Virus record (IMG/VR): IMGVR_UViG_3300032829_000509
Span: 1-22,998 of that record
Origin: a virus
Length of the DNA: 22,998 bases
Reading direction: 5' to 3' (one strand)
Shown: piece by piece, positions 13,378 to 22,998 of the stretch
Numbering within the stretch: position 1 is the first letter of the stretch
Layout of the letters: the number at the start of each line of letters is the position of its first letter
Position numbers and translations under genes: made by a program
The notes under the pieces: generated by a model
Seen by the model: only the letters and a program-made list of their open reading frames with translations
What the model was told of the DNA's origin: nothing
Databases searched by the model: none

Positions 13378-13406
13378 ATTAAATCATACAAATATGTGAG
13401 CGTCAA
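13378..13406 (-). promoter_or_regulatory. Sigma70-like promoter for the capsid gene
   Basis: On the minus strand TTGACG (13406-13401) is followed after exactly 17 nt by TTTAAT (13383-13378). This matches the consensus at 5/6 and 5/6 with optimal spacing, inside an AT-rich island of an otherwise GC-rich sequence. It would start transcription near 13371, about 170 nt before the capsid ATG. The -35 shares its TTGACG with the early leftward promoter at 20698. Confidence 0.65.
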
Positions 13407-17265: not shown

Positions 17266-17963
17266 GCCCACCTCGCCAGCAGATCGGTGCCTGCGTAGAC
17301 CGAATATGGGCGGCGGCGGTCCTGTAGCATCGCTTCCGGATGATCGCCGTCGTTTGCCGGCGCCGGTTTGGCTGGCTTGGCCGACTTCGGAGCGGCTGAC
17401 TTCGGTACGGTGGCCGTCCCAACACCATCGCGCGGGTTCAGCATCTGCGTCGGCTTCTCGCCGCGAGAGTCGAGGTTGTATGCGGAGTGTGGGACGCTCC
17501 AATGCGCGGGAGCTTCGGGAGTGCCGCCGGTCAGGTTGTCGAACGCCCGTCCCATCAAGGTACGGCCGTACTCGTCCGAGGTTGCGACGCCGCCGATCAG
17601 GCCCCCGACGCTGCCGGTTCCGAGCGAGAACGCATTGCCGAGCCCGGAGAGCACCTGCCCCGCGGAGGGATGGCGGTAATCCGGCACCGCCCCGCCGAAG
17701 GGCCGCTCCTGAGACCGGTCACCCCGCAGCGAGCGGCCTGCCTTGATTGCCGTCCGGTCGCCGATCGATTCCAGAGCATGCTGGAAGGCGGCATCCGCAC
17801 GACGCGGACCGCCGAAATCACTGCTGCCGTTTCGGCCCCCGTCACTGCCGCTTCCACTGTCCCCCGACCGTCCCGGACCGCTCGGATTGGCACCGGAATC
17901 ACGGGCGGAGCGATCCGCAGGCTCCGTGCGACCATACCCTGCCTTCTGACCTTTCACGGCCAT
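17262..17963 (-). CDS. Low-complexity phage protein of unknown function, 233 aa
   Basis: The N-terminal third (residues about 1-65) is Gly/Ser/Asp/Arg-rich and disordered. It is followed by a region with an amphipathic helix and a glycine-rich hydrophobic part (LSGLGNAFSLGTGSVGGLIG) and a Lys/Pro/Ala-rich linker (PKSAAPKSAKPAKPAPAN) near the C-terminus. I recognise no family. The glycine-rich hydrophobic segment might associate with membrane or with the virion. The ATG at 17963 has GAGGAG 8 nt upstream and is about 27 nt from the start predicted for the promoter at 17997-18025, so this gene leads the structural transcript; the open frame upstream of this ATG crosses that promoter and is discarded. 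Confidence 0.65.
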   Translation of the reverse strand: MAVKGQKAGYGRTEPADRSARDSGANPSGPGRSGDSGSGSDGGRNGSSDFGGPRRADAAFQHALESIGDRTAIKAGRSLRGDRSQERPFGGAVPDYRHPSAGQVLSGLGNAFSLGTGSVGGLIGGVATSDEYGRTLMGRAFDNLTGGTPEAPAHWSVPHSAYNLDSRGEKPTQMLNPRDGVGTATVPKSAAPKSAKPAKPAPANDGDHPEAMLQDRRRPYSVYAGTDLLARWA

Positions 17964-17996: not shown

Positions 17997-18025
17997 ATTA
18001 TATCGCGAAATCGTAGCCCACACAA
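17997..18025 (-). promoter_or_regulatory. Sigma70-like promoter upstream of the structural genes
   Basis: On the minus strand a perfect TATAAT (18002-17997) lies 17 nt after TTGTGT (18025-18020). It is in the only substantial gap (91 nt) after the terminase gene, and it is AT-rich. It would give a leader of about 27 nt with a strong Shine-Dalgarno. A 5-bp stem (CACAC/GTGTG) overlaps the -35; read on the plus strand this stem ends in five Ts, but no plus-strand gene ends there. Confidence 0.6.
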
Positions 18026-18054
18026 TAGTGTGTTTTTATCAGTCCTACCGCCAA

Positions 18055-19467
18055 TCACCAGCCATACGGATTGGTAGTCCGCATCGGCCCCACCGTGACG
18101 CTCCGGTCTGCAAATTTTGGCCGTCCGGGAAGACCCCGACCGAGGGCGGACATCGACAGATCCACTAGGGGTCCCCGATCGATGAGGTGCCGGCCAAGCC
18201 CGACCGCGAGGTATCGGAAAGCATCCGCGGCATGCGAGGTCCAATCATGTAGCGGCACCGGCTTCAAAACCTGCCGCCGCTCGTCCCAATCGGATCGGTA
18301 CTGCCGCAATGCCGTCAGCCCGTCGCCGCAGCGCCCGGAGTTGAACCAGCTCTTCCGCAGCATGAAGCGCGCCTGCGAGATGCCGTCATCGACCGACGAA
18401 GCAGCGAGGATCGTCGGCGCAATGCCAAAGCCCTTCAGCACGTCCGCGCGGGCGAGCCCGGACCCAAGCTCCTTCACGGCGAGATCATGGGGGAAGAAAT
18501 GCAGGCCATAGATCCAGTCCGCACGATGGCCCGCACGCAACTGTGCGACGTAATGGTCAAGGCCGACGCCAGCAGACTCATAGTAGTCGATCAGTCGGGG
18601 CTCGCGGTGCACGAGCTGCGCAAACCAGATGCTGGTCGAATCGCCGATCCCAAGATCCCAAGCGGTATGTACCGGCAATGAGGGCTCATGGGCGAAGGTC
18701 TTCACCCGGCCCTCCCGCTCTGCCTGCGCAATCAACGCCGCGTAATAGGCGCCCGGCACTGCTGCATCGAACGAACACTCGAACTCCTGGGCGTACTGGT
18801 CGGAAGTCATGGCGCGGCGTGCTGCGTCGAGCTCCGCGGGGTCGATGATGCCGGTTTCGCTCGCCTTGAACAGGTAACCGGCCCAATCGGGATCGCACCT
18901 TCGCGCACCATCCTCGGCCAGAAATCCCTTCGTGGCCGATTCGTAGAGATCGCAGAATGCGTTCCGGCCCAACGGTGTGCCGATGAAGATCGCCCAACCC
19001 ATGCGATCGGCCAGCGCAGGCCGGATCACCTCAGCCCAGACCCGAGGGTGCATCTGTGCAAATTCATCCAGCACCACGCCGTCGAAATACAATCCTCGAA
19101 GTCTGTCGGCATTGTCGGCGCCGTAGAGGCGTATCCGTGCCCGCCCCGCCCCGCCCTTCCGTGGTGGCAGGTCCACGGCGAGTTCGGTCTCGCTCACGGA
19201 GATCCCCGGAACCGCCGCCGTGTAGCGTTTCAGATAGGGCCAGGCGACGTCCTTCACCTGCACCTGGAACGGCGCCACATAGGCGAAGCGCGGATCCTGC
19301 AGGCGGCAACGTGCGGCCCGCGAGATCAGCTCGTTGACGCAAAACACTGTCTTGCCGAAACGGCGATGCGCCACCAGTACCTTGAAACGCGCCTCAGCCG
19401 CATGCAGCGCGCGCTGCTGCAGCCGCGGCACGTGTCCGGTTGCGACCTTGACGCTCTCAGTATCCAT
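18055..19467 (-). CDS. terL: Terminase large subunit
   Basis: A 470-residue DNA-packaging motor. ATPase part: Walker A-like AHRRFGKT (33-40), Walker B VVLDEF (131-136) with the catalytic Glu, coupling motif region FIGTP (161-165). Nuclease part: WDLGIGD (270-276) carries the first metal-binding Asp, HDLAVKELG gives a second conserved element, and HAADAFRYLAVG near the C-terminus the last. All key residues are present and the length is normal. It packages DNA into the prohead through the portal coded downstream. The start overlaps the putative small terminase by 11 nt, showing translational coupling. The packaging strategy (cos, pac or terminal repeats) cannot be decided from this sequence alone. 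Confidence 0.95.
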   Translation of the reverse strand: MDTESVKVATGHVPRLQQRALHAAEARFKVLVAHRRFGKTVFCVNELISRAARCRLQDPRFAYVAPFQVQVKDVAWPYLKRYTAAVPGISVSETELAVDLPPRKGGAGRARIRLYGADNADRLRGLYFDGVVLDEFAQMHPRVWAEVIRPALADRMGWAIFIGTPLGRNAFCDLYESATKGFLAEDGARRCDPDWAGYLFKASETGIIDPAELDAARRAMTSDQYAQEFECSFDAAVPGAYYAALIAQAEREGRVKTFAHEPSLPVHTAWDLGIGDSTSIWFAQLVHREPRLIDYYESAGVGLDHYVAQLRAGHRADWIYGLHFFPHDLAVKELGSGLARADVLKGFGIAPTILAASSVDDGISQARFMLRKSWFNSGRCGDGLTALRQYRSDWDERRQVLKPVPLHDWTSHAADAFRYLAVGLGRHLIDRGPLVDLSMSALGRGLPGRPKFADRSVTVGPMRTTNPYGW

Positions 19468-19720
19468 CGTCGATCAGTACGTATGCAATGGTGCGCGTCT
19501 CGCTTCCGGTCACTGTCGGCGCCCGGCCATAGGCGCGATCCAGCAATTCACGGAGCGCCGCGACGCGAACGGATTCCGATTCCGCACCGGTGCCCAGGCG
19601 AAGCAACTCCGCGACCGCGTCCGGACCGTGCTGCCGCGCCAGGGCGCCGACGAAACCGGCCGGGTCGTCGCCGTCGCCGACGGTCTTTAGTGCAGGAGAA
19701 CGACGCTTTACGCCGGCCAT
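19457..19720 (-). CDS. Putative terminase small subunit / DNA-packaging accessory protein
   Basis: An 87-residue protein immediately upstream of the large terminase and overlapping it. The central part (ALARQHGPDAVAELLRLG, then VAALRELLDRAYGRAPT) is a helical pattern, with the R-x-x-A-x-x-x-L-L-D-R-x-Y-G-x-x-P motif, found in many small proteins that precede terL in phages of proteobacteria. Small terminases recognise the packaging site, but the short length (usual members are 120-200 residues) leaves the DNA-binding role uncertain. Weak Shine-Dalgarno; coupled to the preceding gene by a 3-nt gap. Confidence 0.55.
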   Translation of the reverse strand: MAGVKRRSPALKTVGDGDDPAGFVGALARQHGPDAVAELLRLGTGAESESVRVAALRELLDRAYGRAPTVTGSETRTIAYVLIDDGY

Positions 19721-19723
19721 CTG

Positions 19724-19963
19724 CTACCCGAAATTCCGTCGGATCTCGCCGGCGAGGCGTTCGAGCAGCCTCGCGACACGGTCGGCAGGCACGCAGTTCA
19801 TCGCATCCTGCGCGAGACCAAGGGCCACCATCCGGCCGTTGCAGGCGATTGTGATCGCCGACACCGCCGCGAGATCGACAGCAACGCCGCCGAGCCGCAG
19901 CATCGGCGTCGCCGGCTTCACCTGGGGCAGCGCAACCATGGATCGACGCCTGCGTAGGTTCAT
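19724..19963 (-). CDS. Small hypothetical protein, 79 aa
   Basis: The ATG at 19963 overlaps the stop of the winged-helix gene as ATGA. The product begins MNLRRRRSMVAL and continues with LRLGGVAVDLAAVSAITIAC and a helical, positively charged C-terminus (RVARLLERLAGEIRRNFG). An ATG at 19939 is another possible start. The pattern of a short strand pair followed by a helix does not point to a known family. Codon bias is that of the neighbours and the gene is packed between overlapping genes, so it is probably real. Confidence 0.6.
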   Translation of the reverse strand: MNLRRRRSMVALPQVKPATPMLRLGGVAVDLAAVSAITIACNGRMVALGLAQDAMNCVPADRVARLLERLAGEIRRNFG

Positions 19964-20244
19964 GCCAGAACCCATTTTGCCGCGCTATGGCCGGAAGCAT
20001 TGCATCCGCGATGGCCCGAATCCTTGATCACGCCGCGCTTCGCCAACTCGGATACTCGCGGACGGACGTTGAGGATGCTCTCGCCGAGCGCATCGGCCAC
20101 CTCATCCGCCGTCATCGGCCCGCCCCGTGCCAGGATGGCATAGACCTTCGCCTGCAGTCCCTGGCCCTGCGGAATGCGGTACCGAACCGGATTGATCGCG
20201 CCCTCGTCGTCTAGCGCGGCGGCGGCTAGATTGTCGGCCATCAT
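19960..20244 (-). CDS. Winged-helix DNA-binding protein
   Basis: A 94-residue protein. Residues about 30-93 read as a winged helix: helix 1 LQAKVYAILARGGPMT, ADEVADALGE, recognition helix NVRPRVSELAKRGVI, then a basic wing and a C-terminal strand SGHSAAKWVLA. The final G-x-x-A-x-x-W-x-L motif is common in phage proteins of this type. It may regulate transcription, or take part in packaging or replication initiation, given its closeness to terminase. GGGAGG lies 4 nt before the first ATG and 7 nt before the second (20241), so either could be used. It overlaps its upstream neighbour by 4 nt. Confidence 0.7.
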   Translation of the reverse strand: MMADNLAAAALDDEGAINPVRYRIPQGQGLQAKVYAILARGGPMTADEVADALGESILNVRPRVSELAKRGVIKDSGHRGCNASGHSAAKWVLA

Positions 20245-20504
20245 GCAACCTCCCGAGTGCTGTCTTGGTTCGAACTGGTGTTTTCAGACGGGGCCGCGTC
20301 CCTCTCGAGCTCGGGCTCCCGCGGCAGATAGGCGCGCTCGATATGGGTCAAGCAGTACGGTCGCCTGCCTGAAGTTGCGGCGCCGCACCAGCCATCCTCG
20401 AGCGGCCATCGGCAACAGTGCGGATGGTCGCTCAATGCCGCGAAGGTGAGCACAGCCGGTAGGGTTGAGCCGGCGTCCGGCTCACCATCCAGGTCAGGAT
20501 TCAT
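20241..20504 (-). CDS. GcrA-like Cys/His protein lacking the DNA-binding domain
   Basis: An 87-residue protein with the pattern C31-R-W-P, C40-G, G46-R-R-P-Y-C51, H54, A-Y-L, which matches the C-terminal domain of the alphaproteobacterial cell-cycle regulator GcrA (C-x-W-P ... F-C-G ... G-x-P-Y-C-x-x-H ... A-Y). In Caulobacter this domain binds sigma70 region 2, while a separate N-terminal helix-turn-helix binds DNA. Here the N-terminal domain is absent: only about 28 other residues precede the motif, and a disordered tail follows. So it could bind host sigma70 without its own DNA target. It is the first substantial gene of the leftward early operon, behind the repressor-controlled promoter. 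Four conserved Cys/His residues could hold zinc. The sigma-binding role is inferred from the family. Confidence 0.7.
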   Translation of the reverse strand: MNPDLDGEPDAGSTLPAVLTFAALSDHPHCCRWPLEDGWCGAATSGRRPYCLTHIERAYLPREPELERDAAPSENTSSNQDSTREVA

Positions 20505-20548: not shown

Positions 20549-20662
20549 TCAGGGGGAGCGCCGCGGTGCTCCGGACATCACAACCCATCCGGGATCGAGA
20601 CGCCGCCGCCCGCCTTGGGGAGTGAGCACCATCGAAGCTCGGGAATTGATCGGCGTCTTCAT
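20549..20662 (-). CDS. Putative leaderless leader peptide, 37 aa
   Basis: The ATG at 20662 lies exactly 7 nt after the -10 element of the leftward promoter, so it would be at or beside the transcription start. The frame runs 37 codons (start MKTPINSRASMVLTPQGG, end GAPRRSP) and stops 44 nt before the GcrA-like gene. About 70% of its codons end in G or C. No Shine-Dalgarno could be used. The plus-strand early promoter has the same 7-nt distance to an ATG, which supports this interpretation. No family recognised; it could also be a regulatory leader. Confidence 0.4.
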   Translation of the reverse strand: MKTPINSRASMVLTPQGGRRRLDPGWVVMSGAPRRSP

Positions 20663-20669
20663 GCCTCGA

Positions 20670-20698
20670 ACCATAATAGGCTATTGCCTATTCGTCAA
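20670..20698 (-). promoter_or_regulatory. Early leftward promoter, spacer filled by operator O1
   Basis: On the minus strand TTGACG (20698-20693) and TATGGT (20675-20670) are 17 nt apart. The 18-bp operator O1 (20675-20692) fills the spacer exactly, so repressor bound there must block RNA polymerase. It would drive the leader ORF, the GcrA-like gene and the packaging genes. Confidence 0.65.
20675..20692. promoter_or_regulatory. Repressor operator O1
   Basis: Perfect dyad AATAGGC-TATT-GCCTATT. It is the best copy of an 18-bp motif found five times around the repressor gene, and lies in the spacer of the leftward promoter. Confidence 0.8.
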
Positions 20699-20711
20699 GA
20701 GGCATTATCCT
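20684..20711 (+). promoter_or_regulatory. Candidate repressor promoter
   Basis: TTGCCT (20684-20689) and TATCCT (20706-20711) with a 16-nt spacer is the best plus-strand match (4/6 and 4/6) before the repressor ATG. It would give a leader of about 33 nt and overlaps O1 and O2, implying autoregulation. Another -10 (CATAAT at 20672) lacks a -35, so this assignment is tentative. Confidence 0.35.
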
Positions 20712-20714
20712 ATT
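20697..20714. promoter_or_regulatory. Repressor operator O2
   Basis: AAGAGGC-ATTA-TCCTATT matches 12 of 14 positions of the operator motif. Its start is 22 bp from that of O1, about two helical turns, so cooperative binding of two dimers on the same face is possible. It overlaps the putative -10 of the repressor promoter and touches the -35 of the leftward promoter. Confidence 0.65.
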
Positions 20715-20735: not shown

Positions 20736-20753
20736 GATAGGCTCCCGCCTATG
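20736..20753. promoter_or_regulatory. Repressor operator O3, over the repressor start codon
   Basis: GATAGGC-TCCC-GCCTATG, a perfect dyad differing from the motif only at the two outermost bases. It covers the repressor start codon (20751-20753) and its weak ribosome-binding region, so binding here would limit repressor synthesis. Confidence 0.7.
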
Positions 20754-21500
20754 GACCCGATTAGAAAGCTCGTCGTCGATCGCATTGCCGCCCTCGGTCT
20801 GGACATGGCGGGCGTCTCGCGCCGGCTCGGCCTCAACCATGCCTACATCCAGCAGTTCGTCACCAAGGGTAAGCCTCAGGCGCTACCCGAGGAGGTGCGC
20901 TACGGTCTCGCCGAAATCCTCGGCGTCGATGAAGCAGAGCTTCGGATCCAACGTCGGCCGCGAGGCGGACCGGAGGATACCGCGAGCACAATCTATCTCA
21001 CAACCGCGCCCCGCGGCAGCTTGGCCGAAGACCAGGCCGAACGGCCGAATGTCCGTCCGGCTCCTGACGTTCGGCTCGCGCGGCCGGCCGGGCGACCGGA
21101 GACCGTGCCGGTGCGAGGCACCGTGCGGGGCGGCACCGAAGGTTCCTTTGAACTGAACATGGGTGACGCCATCGAGTACGTACGCCGCCCTGTCTCGTTG
21201 ATCGGCAAGGGAGACATCTATGCGCTCTATGTCGAGGGCGATTCCATGGCGCCGCGCTACGAGCCTGGAGAGATCGTTCTTGTCTATGCCGCGCGGCCAC
21301 CGGTCATCGGCCGCGATGTCGTGATCCAGGTCCGCCCCAAGGTGGAAGGCGACAATCCCCTCGCCTATCTGAAGCGCCTTGTGCGGCGCACAGATCGTGA
21401 AATCACGGTCGAGCAGTTCAATCCCCGGAAGACCCGTATCTTCAAGTCGGCCGATGTACTATCCGTCCATCTGGTCCTTACCCGCGACGAGATGCTCTAG
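20751..21500 (+). CDS. Phage repressor, HTH plus S24 (LexA/CI-like) peptidase
   Basis: A 249-residue protein. Residues about 10-60 form a helix-turn-helix of the type common in alphaproteobacterial phage repressors (AGVSRRLGLNHAYIQQFVTK, then EEVRYGLAEILGV). A disordered linker follows. Residues about 119-245 are an S24 domain: VEGDSMAPRY with catalytic Ser165, YLKRL with Lys208. Aligned to LexA, the cleavage dipeptide Ala-Gly is replaced here by Gly127-Gly128 in VPVRGTVRGG. The protein should hold the lysogenic state by binding the AATAGGC-N4-GCCTATT operators on both sides of its gene. The start at 20751 is chosen because the longer open frame from 20622 runs through three operators and two promoters and has no family similarity. 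No good Shine-Dalgarno is visible, so expression is probably low. Confidence 0.88.
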   Translation: MDPIRKLVVDRIAALGLDMAGVSRRLGLNHAYIQQFVTKGKPQALPEEVRYGLAEILGVDEAELRIQRRPRGGPEDTASTIYLTTAPRGSLAEDQAERPNVRPAPDVRLARPAGRPETVPVRGTVRGGTEGSFELNMGDAIEYVRRPVSLIGKGDIYALYVEGDSMAPRYEPGEIVLVYAARPPVIGRDVVIQVRPKVEGDNPLAYLKRLVRRTDREITVEQFNPRKTRIFKSADVLSVHLVLTRDEML

Positions 21501-21507
21501 ACGCTGC

Positions 21508-21525
21508 AATAGGCTGTTACCTATT
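21508..21525. promoter_or_regulatory. Repressor operator O4
   Basis: AATAGGC-TGTT-ACCTATT matches 13 of 14 positions of the motif. It lies 7 nt after the repressor stop and touches the -35 of the promoter of the next gene, so that gene must be in the same regulon. Confidence 0.75.
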
Positions 21526-21552
21526 TACAGTTGATCGGAAATCGCCTATCAT
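21524..21552 (+). promoter_or_regulatory. Early rightward promoter, leaderless geometry
   Basis: TTTACA (21524-21529) and TATCAT (21547-21552), 17 nt apart, match the sigma70 consensus at 5/6 and 5/6. The ATG at 21560 lies exactly 7 nt after the -10. O4 and the weaker O5 cover the -35 edge and the spacer/-10. Confidence 0.65.
21533..21550. promoter_or_regulatory. Weak repressor operator O5
   Basis: GATCGGA-AATC-GCCTATC matches 10 of 14 positions; only the right half is good. It lies 25 bp from O4 and overlaps the -10 of the rightward promoter. Its meaning depends on this position; alone the match would not be convincing. Confidence 0.45.
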
Positions 21553-21559
21553 TCTCGTG

Positions 21560-21916
21560 ATGGATTGCGAGACACTCGCCCTTTCGCAACGCATGCGGCG
21601 CGATGCCGAGCTCCGTTACGATTCCGGCATTCCAATCGAGATCCGTGCCGCAATCTCGGCGCAGGAGCGGATCGAAAGCGATCTCCGTGCGATGCGTGGG
21701 CTCGACCGGAATGAGCGGTTACGATTCATTTCCGCCCGCGAGTTCGCCTTGGCGAAGAACTGCTTTCGGAACTTGGTGCGGATGCTGCGCAGCGGGACGC
21801 TTGCCCGCCCCAGCCGGGCCTGGCAGACACTGCGGGAACAGGCCCGCAGCGAAGCGACACTCCACCTCGAATGCTGGCGCGATCTGCGGCGGCGGGAAAT
21901 GCGGCCCTTAGGCTAA
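21560..21916 (+). CDS. Repressor-controlled early protein, 118 aa, unknown
   Basis: A basic, helical, Arg-rich protein starting MDCETLALSQRMRRDAEL, with ERIESDLRAMRGLDRNERLR and FALAKNCFRNLVRMLRSG in the middle and a long C-terminal helix. No family recognised; no signal peptide or membrane segment. The ATG at 21560 is preferred to GTG at 21557 because it is 7 nt after the -10 of its promoter, and no Shine-Dalgarno exists. Repression by the same protein as the leftward operon suggests an early lytic, antirepressor, Cro-like or excision-related role; these are guesses. Its stop codon overlaps that of the convergent histidine kinase by 4 nt, leaving no room for a terminator. Confidence 0.65.
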   Translation: MDCETLALSQRMRRDAELRYDSGIPIEIRAAISAQERIESDLRAMRGLDRNERLRFISAREFALAKNCFRNLVRMLRSGTLARPSRAWQTLREQARSEATLHLECWRDLRRREMRPLG

Positions 21917-22899
21917 CGCGCCAGCTCGAGCGTACAGGAGACGCCCTCAGGCTCGAAGGCGATGCTACCGCCGCTCAGAGCGATTAGGCGCGTACCGAAA
22001 CCCTGGCGCTGCCCCGGTGTCACCGACGGCCCACCGGTCTCGCGCCAATGGATGCGAATACGTTCGCTGGGCCGGTCCGCCGTCCGGTCCCAGGTGATGA
22101 CGATTTGCCCTTGCGGCAGCGAAAGAGCGCCGTACTTGATGGCGTTGGTCGCGAGCTCATGCAGCGCCATCGCCAGCATCATCGCCTTCCCCGCCTCCAA
22201 CACCGCTTCGTCGAAGCCTTCGATCGTCAGACGGTCGCGATGCTGCTCCTCGAACGGCTGCAGCACGCGCTGGATCACGTCGCGCACCGTGGTCCGGTTC
22301 CACCGTTCCAGGGTCAAGAGATCATGCGCCCGGGCGAGCGCCTGCAGCCGCGCGCCGAAGGCAGCGCGTTCTTCCGCCGGCGCGCCACGCATGGTCTGGG
22401 TCGCGAGCGCCTGGACCGTCGCCAGCGTATTGCGGATCCGATGGTTCATTTCGCTCAGCAGCAGGCTCTGCTGTCGCTCGCGCTCTCGCCTTTCGGTGAT
22501 GTCGCGGGCGATCTTGGAAGCGCCGACGATCACACCGGCCGCATCCTTGATCGGCGAGACGCTCAGCGAAACATCGACCATCGAGCCGTCCTTGCGACGA
22601 CGGATCGTGTCGTAATGTTTGATAGGCTCGCCACGGCGAATGCGGGCAAGGATTTCGGGCTCCTCATCCACCCGGTCCTCGGGGATCAGGATCAGCACCG
22701 GTCGGCCGATAACCTCCTCGGCTTCGTAACCGAAGAGACGCTTCGCCCCGGCATTCCAGCTGGTGATGATCCCGTCGAGATCCTTGCTGATGATCGCATC
22801 ATCGGAGTGGGCGACGATCGCCGCTAGCCATGCGCGAGATCTTGCCGCTTCGCCCGCGTCCGCCTTCTCCGATGCGGCATCGGCAGGACTAGAGAACAT
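21913..22899 (-). CDS. HWE-family sensor histidine kinase with PAS domain
   Basis: A 328-residue cytosolic kinase, with no membrane segment. Residues about 22-135 form a PAS domain (DDAIISKDLDGIITSWNAGA, FGYEAEEVIGRPV, IKDAAGVIVGASKIARDITE); the NCRFLQ motif of LOV photoreceptors is absent. The H-box NHRIRNTLATVQALA places phosphoacceptor His153. The N-box LHELATNAIKYG with its His, HWRETGG giving the W-x-E motif, and GFGTRLI as G-box define the HWE class, typical of alphaproteobacteria and often tied to the general stress response. All key residues are present. The ATG at 22899 has GGAG 8 nt upstream; the frame remains open to an ATG at the very window edge (22998), but codon bias there is poor. 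It may be host flank or phage cargo; a cognate response regulator is not visible. Confidence 0.88.
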   Translation of the reverse strand: MFSSPADAASEKADAGEAARSRAWLAAIVAHSDDAIISKDLDGIITSWNAGAKRLFGYEAEEVIGRPVLILIPEDRVDEEPEILARIRRGEPIKHYDTIRRRKDGSMVDVSLSVSPIKDAAGVIVGASKIARDITERRERERQQSLLLSEMNHRIRNTLATVQALATQTMRGAPAEERAAFGARLQALARAHDLLTLERWNRTTVRDVIQRVLQPFEEQHRDRLTIEGFDEAVLEAGKAMMLAMALHELATNAIKYGALSLPQGQIVITWDRTADRPSERIRIHWRETGGPSVTPGQRQGFGTRLIALSGGSIAFEPEGVSCTLELAR

Positions 22900-22998
22900 C
22901 CCTTCCACTCCAAATCCAAAGGGCGCCGTCAAGTAATGGCACTCCGGTTCTTCCATTTGTTTCGTCAACGAGTAGGACGTCCCGAACTCCTCACGCAT

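Follow-up and report, generated by a model that had tools for sequence, protein, structure and literature searches.

What can the σ70-binding half of GcrA do for a phage when the DNA-binding half of the protein is missing? In GcrA, the sigma-interacting domain (SID) binds domain 2 of σ and the DNA-binding domain (residues 1–45) reads promoter DNA (PMC7403470), which it contacts downstream of the -35 box (PMC12340889). The window analyzed here, a 22,998-nucleotide stretch of viral DNA (IMG/VR record IMGVR_UViG_3300032829_000509), encodes an 87-amino acid protein in which a sequence-only reading had recognized the SID by itself, expressed early by a temperate phage. We asked whether this protein is a GcrA SID, and with which partners and at which promoters it might act. 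The features of the locus are listed in Table 1.

Table 1. Features of the SID operon, its control region, and the late promoters of the window.
Feature	Coordinates	Strand	Remarks
SID-only GcrA-like protein gene	20241..20504	-	ATG start, 87 aa, stop included
Partner gene, 94-aa winged helix-turn-helix protein (phrog_1123)	19960..20244	-	ATG overlaps SID stop codon (ATGA)
83-aa protein, third operon gene	19724..19975	-	function not assigned
87-aa protein, terminase small-subunit position	19457..19720	-	weak match to PHROG terminase small subunit (E 0.11)
Terminase large subunit, 470 aa	18055..19467	-	
Possible 41-aa leader ORF	20549..20674	-	between P_R and SID gene
Putative promoter P_R	20670..20698	-	-35 TTGACG (20693-20698), 17 nt, -10 TATGGT (20670-20675)
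Repressor operator ATAGGCtattGCCTAT	20676..20691	.	inside P_R spacer, 0 mismatches
Weaker operator copy	20698..20713	.	2 mismatches
Repressor operator ATAGGCtcccGCCTAT	20737..20752	.	0 mismatches; overlaps likely repressor start
CI-like repressor with S24 peptidase domain	20751..21500	+	longest ORF from 20622; likely ATG 20751 (L002 comparison)
Clade-specific palindrome ACACTATTGTGT	18020..18031	-	-35 position of late promoter P_L1
P_L1 -10 box TATAAT	17997..18002	-	exactly 17 nt behind palindrome; gene start ATG at 17963
Putative capsid promoter P_cap	13378..13406	-	TTGACG-17-TTTAAT

Judged by its gene content, the element is a podovirus-like prophage. Its virion genes encode a portal/head-tail connector (PF12236), tail proteins, internal virion proteins, and the major head protein, confirming the T7-like podoviral set that had been recognized earlier, and in relatives the lysis genes lie at the end of the element. 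A T7-type RNA polymerase was not found in a search with RNA_pol Pfam profiles, for which the positive control was silent too. An S24/CI-like repressor, together with operators and host flanks, supports the temperate character assigned to the phage; a tyrosine or serine recombinase, however, was detected in none of the seven records (positive controls gave signal). The ORF at 21913–22998, which by eye resembles a PAS/HWE-type histidine kinase and has its end a few bases from the last phage ORF, is probably host flank.

The genome of ‘Rhodospirillaceae bacterium R-7’ carries a related element of ~22.6 kb, flanked on one side by a gene called DUF445-like on the basis of its sequence and on the other by an oxidoreductase gene; the element contains a Fic-domain protein with DUF4172 (L144:20-1117). 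Two elements (L003:1-1257 and L143:966-2222) lie beside the same DUF445-like host gene, with 83% DNA identity, which suggests that they either share an insertion site or descend from a common ancestor. The R-7 element (L143/L144) and L145–L150 are 22–30 kb in length and carry genes for a repressor, the virion, and lysis; searches of L143–L150 revealed neither an integrase nor a resolvase, and the ORFs scanned included no replication gene. The idea of a gene-transfer agent (GTA) was considered and dropped. The capsid gene is present in only one of the 17 genomes searched from R-7’s order, and vertical, GTA-like inheritance is therefore unsupported.

The 87-amino acid protein contains HPHCCRWPLEDGWCGAATSGRRPYCLTHIERAYLPRE, and thus the pattern C-R-W-P / C-G / R-P-Y-C-x-x-H exactly as it had been named. 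The motif reads C-C-R-W-P-L-E-D-G-W-C-G-...-R-R-P-Y-C-L-T-H-I-E-R-A-Y and falls within a SID core of residues ~19–62. Taken alone, the window protein is a borderline case for a more than chance match to GcrA. It does not reach the full family cut-off of either available profile, scoring E=0.0023 against Pfam GcrA (PF07750; 18.7 bits compared to a cut-off of 26.9, profile positions 101–148 of 155) and E=5e-4 against NCBIfam GcrA (NF050816; 20.3 of 280 bits, positions 112–162 of 173). The top two matches among 177,635 PDB sequences are nevertheless Caulobacter GcrA chains, 5yix_B (E=7e-4) and 7ye1_G, and at the level of sequence the match is GcrA-specific despite its sub-threshold score. In every viral record with a SID, this SID was the single match of the PF07750 search. 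The search detected the GcrA N-terminal DNA-binding domain (residues 1–45), which serves methylated promoters, neither in the SID ORF nor anywhere else in the viral records, and a second gene encoding the GcrA DNA-binding half was likewise looked for in the records and not found.

A direct protein search with the ORF itself identified no close relatives in viral contigs, and tblastn of phage records with the window SID returned weak matches only, the annotated ones being full-length GcrA. Relatives were located through terminase synteny, in the viral contigs L002–L005 and L023 and in L083, the prophage-like element of R-7. The SID-only ORF has the same place at all seven loci (the window included), lying opposite a CI/S24-like repressor and followed by the gene for the winged helix-turn-helix (wHTH) protein, a small gene, a TerS-like gene, and TerL. 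In the sister phages L006 and L011 (~60% TerL identity), a different small protein (IEFPPSSSLRPEQAIG...; L006:1-225, L011:1149-1496) is encoded near the operon head, upstream of the TerS-like gene and in the position expected for the SID. The syntenic ORFs of the six relatives each match PF07750 (best E per record, 1.6e-7 to 2.1e-4), with that of L002 alone passing the cut-off. The profile comparison with GcrA that had been proposed is therefore sub-threshold for the window protein by itself but positive for the family: all seven proteins match the C-terminal part of PF07750, and no other family matches consistently, treble-clef and YacG matches being weak.

The relationship was also apparent in the reverse direction. 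A profile of the seven phage-type cores alone recovered the host GcrA from every one of the 17 genomes searched in R-7’s family. R-7’s own GcrA matched with E 1.3e-6, and the best matches in the remaining 16 genomes had E 1.3e-7 to 5e-11; the sequences matched in this family show the GcrA N-terminus. Among 385 alphaproteobacterial genomes, the only SID-only protein was that of R-7’s prophage, and the other strong matches were GcrA with its N-terminus. These results identify the domain as the GcrA SID and indicate that the SID-only form is rare. Chance resemblance or a generic zinc finger was rejected, because the family profile matches GcrA-type proteins only in the genomes searched and seven of seven members match PF07750.

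The structure of the SID was predicted with AlphaFold2 on the seven-row alignment, using no templates. The model has pLDDT values of 80–87 over residues 21–60, and the N- and C-terminal tails, which are of low confidence, are probably disordered. The best PDB match of the model among 350,542 chains is 5yix_B, the Caulobacter GcrA SID bound to σ70 domain 2 (Foldseek: rmsd 1.6 Å, 37 columns, E 0.71; VIA-align: rmsd 1.9 Å, 42 of 48 residues, Z 4.9), and none of six other chains aligned to the model reached Z 2 in VIA-align. These modest scores are attributable to the tiny size of the domain. Structural similarity to the GcrA C-terminal domain, set beforehand as a test, was thus observed in the model. 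AlphaFold may have learned 5YIX in training, and the predicted fold is consistent with the sequence result rather than an independent proof of it. The C-terminal matches to PF07750, the reciprocal profile, and the predicted fold agree with the proposal of a GcrA sigma-interacting domain that lacks the GcrA DNA-binding N-terminus, and support the identification of the 87-amino acid protein as a free-standing GcrA SID.

The SID core is under purifying selection, with dN/dS from C31 to P62 of 0.16–0.49 in eight pairs, as compared to 0.49–0.91 outside the core over the pairs compared. A truncated pseudogene was rejected on the basis of dN/dS and synteny. Selection also bears on whether the protein might be a degenerate leftover of GcrA, or a small metal-knuckle protein that has lost its binding to σ70. 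Such a protein would be in keeping with the weak treble-clef and YacG matches, with the R-7 copy being without the usual stop, and with the window copy having lost ~6–7 residues from the loop between its first two cysteines (after W-P-x-x-D). We consider this very unlikely, as dN/dS of the core is well below 1 in the pairs compared, the position of the gene is conserved in seven loci, and C31, W33, D37, C40, R48, C51, H54, and Y59 are invariant in the seven members, the putative C/C/C/H ligands among the residues kept.

The wHTH gene directly follows the SID gene in seven of seven loci. The SID stop and wHTH start overlap in ATGA fashion in the window, L003, L004, L005, and L023, and by 14 nt in L002. 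In the R-7 copy (L083:8906-9478), the SID frame lacks the ATGA-junction stop of its relatives and continues over the wHTH gene in the wrong frame; a natural fusion of SID and wHTH was sought among the loci, and there is none. The partner protein matches phrog_1123 with E 4.5e-16. Its model has pLDDT values of 86–90 in the domain and matches ArsR/MarR-like winged helices with Z up to 11.3, predicting a winged-helix DNA-binding fold. The earlier statement that the DNA-binding part is missing is thus correct within the polypeptide but not for the operon, in which the overlapping next gene encodes this predicted fold. The wHTH of phrog_1123 type also occurs in SID-less phages (pelagiphage-like L030, L074, and L076, and Erythrobacter phages), from which it follows that the wHTH has an older, SID-independent job.

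Both genes appear to be under the control of the CI-like repressor. Two perfect ATAGGCnnnnGCCTAT operators and a weaker third are located between the repressor and SID genes, and one of the perfect copies fills the TTGACG-17-TATGGT spacer of the promoter that reads into the SID gene. A strict P_R pattern requiring TATTAT at an 18-nt gap had no match, and the 17-nt TATGGT reading was adopted. In L003–L005, L023, and R-7, the SID ATG is 6–8 nt behind the putative -10 box, so the message would be leaderless. Expression of the SID as the first product of a repressor-controlled promoter, as had been surmised, is borne out to the extent that DNA sequence can do so, with operators and P_R in place and only a possible leader ORF preceding the SID gene. 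Two more, imperfect repressor operators (21509–21524 and 21534–21549) follow the repressor gene; they lie at what resembles a promoter (TTTACA-17-TATCAT) of the ORF at 21557–21916.

A SID that is probably made first on induction and that lacks the GcrA DNA-binding domain could be a decoy. The free SID would occupy the GcrA site on σ70 and shut off GcrA/CcrM-dependent host promoters, the cell cycle would stall favorably for the phage, and the wHTH would be a separate matter. The carrier genome R-7 also encodes its own full-length GcrA, which would be the competitor, and the full-length GcrA carried by phages has been suggested to drive the cell cycle forward (phiCbK, PMC3556154). A pure decoy, however, needs neither a tightly coupled DNA-binding neighbor in every member nor clade-specific sites at late promoters, and we regard this explanation as rather unlikely. 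The same conserved coupling to the wHTH would go unexplained if the SID were a stand-alone σ cofactor, altering the holoenzyme everywhere as a Crl-like booster or open-complex inhibitor and favoring phage promoters over those of the host without a partner. Precedents exist in Crl, a σ-region-2 binder that needs no DNA contact (PMC6917491), and in the small σ or polymerase binders made by many phages (PMC7403470). GcrA-type factors, though, are reported to need their DNA-contacting part (PMC6917491), and action of the SID alone seems quite improbable.

The late genes carry a candidate target for the wHTH. A palindrome, ACACTATWGTGT, recurs at syntenic positions, one following TerL, one at the capsid gene, and one preceding the counterpart of the window’s left-edge ORF. 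At one mismatch or fewer it is present in six of the seven SID members examined (the window, as in Table 1; L143:6540, 12709; L144:1187; L145:5215, 13259; L147:3980, 11957; L023:3694, 10887), with no occurrence in ~806 kb of terminase relatives without the SID-wHTH pair. The only outside matches are in L009 and L010, which are contigs from this clade, with 72% TerL identity, that end before the SID locus. The chance expectation, from dinucleotide shuffling, is 0.01–0.02 per record. The strict palindrome is missing from L002, whose capsid promoter has a different repeat. A looser consensus, CAYACnnnnGTRTG, uniting the window, L002, and R-7 sites was not above chance and was dropped.

At the promoter behind TerL, P_L1, the palindrome is followed after exactly 17 nt by a -10-like box and then by a gene start in six of six loci (TATAAT, TATAAT, TATAAT, TATACT, TATATT, and TATAAG; L010 repeats L009 in this comparison). 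This spacing places the P_L1 palindrome in the position of the -35 box. Most relatives have the palindrome over the -10 box of their capsid promoter, with a TTGACN-like -35 box located at 17 nt; at P_left, the palindrome is also on the -10 box. The window’s P_cap has only a degenerate CATAtttgTATG repeat, in the spacer. The virion genes appear to have their own putative promoters marked by a clade-specific palindrome, which makes these late promoters of the phage itself candidate targets no less than the host cell cycle.

The arrangement of the palindromes could alternatively mean that the wHTH represses or times the late promoters and that the SID is an independent, host-directed factor, the two sharing an operon only for timing. 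Palindromes over -10 boxes, as at the capsid promoter and P_left, are typical of repressor operators, and relatives of the wHTH occur without a SID. The wHTH is itself under the lytic repressor, though, and therefore could not silence late genes in the lysogen; at P_L1, moreover, the palindrome replaces a recognizable -35 box, as would be expected of an activator site. This alternative appears unlikely to us.

We tentatively prefer, with somewhat less than even confidence, a split GcrA-like activator in which the SID on σ70 and the wHTH on late-promoter palindromes turn on the late genes. Release of the CI-like repressor would allow transcription from P_R, and the SID and wHTH would be made together. 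The SID would dock on domain 2 of host σ70 in the RNA polymerase holoenzyme, as GcrA’s own SID does, and the wHTH would supply DNA recognition by reading the clade’s palindromes at late promoters, such as that in the -35 position of P_L1. As a two-polypeptide GcrA, the pair would recruit or stabilize host polymerase at chosen promoters, switching on the portal, capsid, tail, and lysis genes. The steps from σ binding onward are ones we infer, namely σ70 binding, contact between SID and wHTH, the wHTH as the palindrome binder, and activation rather than repression.

The split activator draws on the identity and predicted fold of the SID, the conserved pair, selection on the SID core, the operators, and the late-promoter palindrome. 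Counting against it are the occurrence of the wHTH family without a SID, the position of the palindrome over the capsid -10 box in most relatives, which fits a repressor better than an activator, and the lack of the strict palindrome in L002. In addition, P_cap resembles a decent σ70 promoter, which should not need help. The palindromes over -10 boxes and the SID-less wHTHs keep alive a late repressor or timer role for the wHTH and a decoy role for the SID. A function of the SID in controlling transcription, as first suggested, is plausible from the sequence data but is to be widened to include the wHTH partner and the late promoters. Should a free SID work with a separate DNA binder, the two halves of GcrA can be uncoupled. 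The phage protein would then be a minimal natural tool for testing the contact to σ domain 2 alone in alphaproteobacteria, and the pair would account for the early-to-late program of a small prophage of podovirus-like type for which the search detected no polymerase.

Compared to Caulobacter crescentus GcrA (SID, 5YIX; RNA polymerase complexes, 7YE1 and 7YE2), the phage protein has the same C-[KR]-W-P...D...C-G...P-Y-C-x-x-H...A-Y SID, with the loop after W-P-x-x-D shortened in the window. It differs in having no N-terminal DNA-binding domain, the next gene encoding a wHTH of another family; phrog_1123 wHTHs elsewhere have no SID neighbor. A phage-borne SID is shared with the full-length phage GcrAs of phiCbK-like Caulobacter phages (PMC3556154), of Brevundimonas, Synechococcus, and Rhizobium phages, and of L098 and L103. 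These, however, carry a helix-turn-helix N-terminus in the same polypeptide, and none was seen to be SID-only. Full-length phage GcrA was thus already known, whereas the SID-only form was not found in the literature or records searched.

Other phages join the SID to different partners. L102 (8492-10231) encodes a 563-amino acid protein with several Myb/SANT-like repeats, as read from its sequence, and a C-terminal GcrA SID. In L105, RHph_X2_24, and OLIVR4, the SID is fused to N-terminal HTH-like parts (read from the sequences) that are unlike GcrA’s own (L105:9341-10180, L152:1183-1692, and L153:1225-1662). The converse is seen in Phaeobacter phage MD18 (L154:1501-1875), in which a 124-amino acid protein has the GcrA DNA-binding N-terminus and no recognizable SID; its gene lies directly behind that for the DNA polymerase III epsilon subunit. 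The joining of SIDs to unrelated helix-turn-helix parts in other phages indicates that the SID is a transferable module.

The closest parallel in logic is σ appropriation in phage T4, in which AsiA binds σ70 and a MotA box replaces the -35 element (PMC2988021). The relationship is by analogy only, as no AsiA or MotA family is among the Pfam, PHROG, and NCBIfam matches of the window. A 2010 review of T4 transcription noted that σ appropriation had not been found outside T4-type phages (PMC2988021). The two co-translated proteins described here could be a second, independently evolved form of it, working by way of σ domain 2 at palindrome-marked late promoters, a reading we hold to be somewhat less likely than not. 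As in T4, the proposed pair would combine a small σ70 binder with a DNA binder whose site would take the place of the -35 element before a good -10 box, an arrangement that the palindrome shows at P_L1 but not at the capsid promoter of most relatives or at P_left; the contact would differ, being σ domain 2 for the phage SID and region 4 for AsiA.
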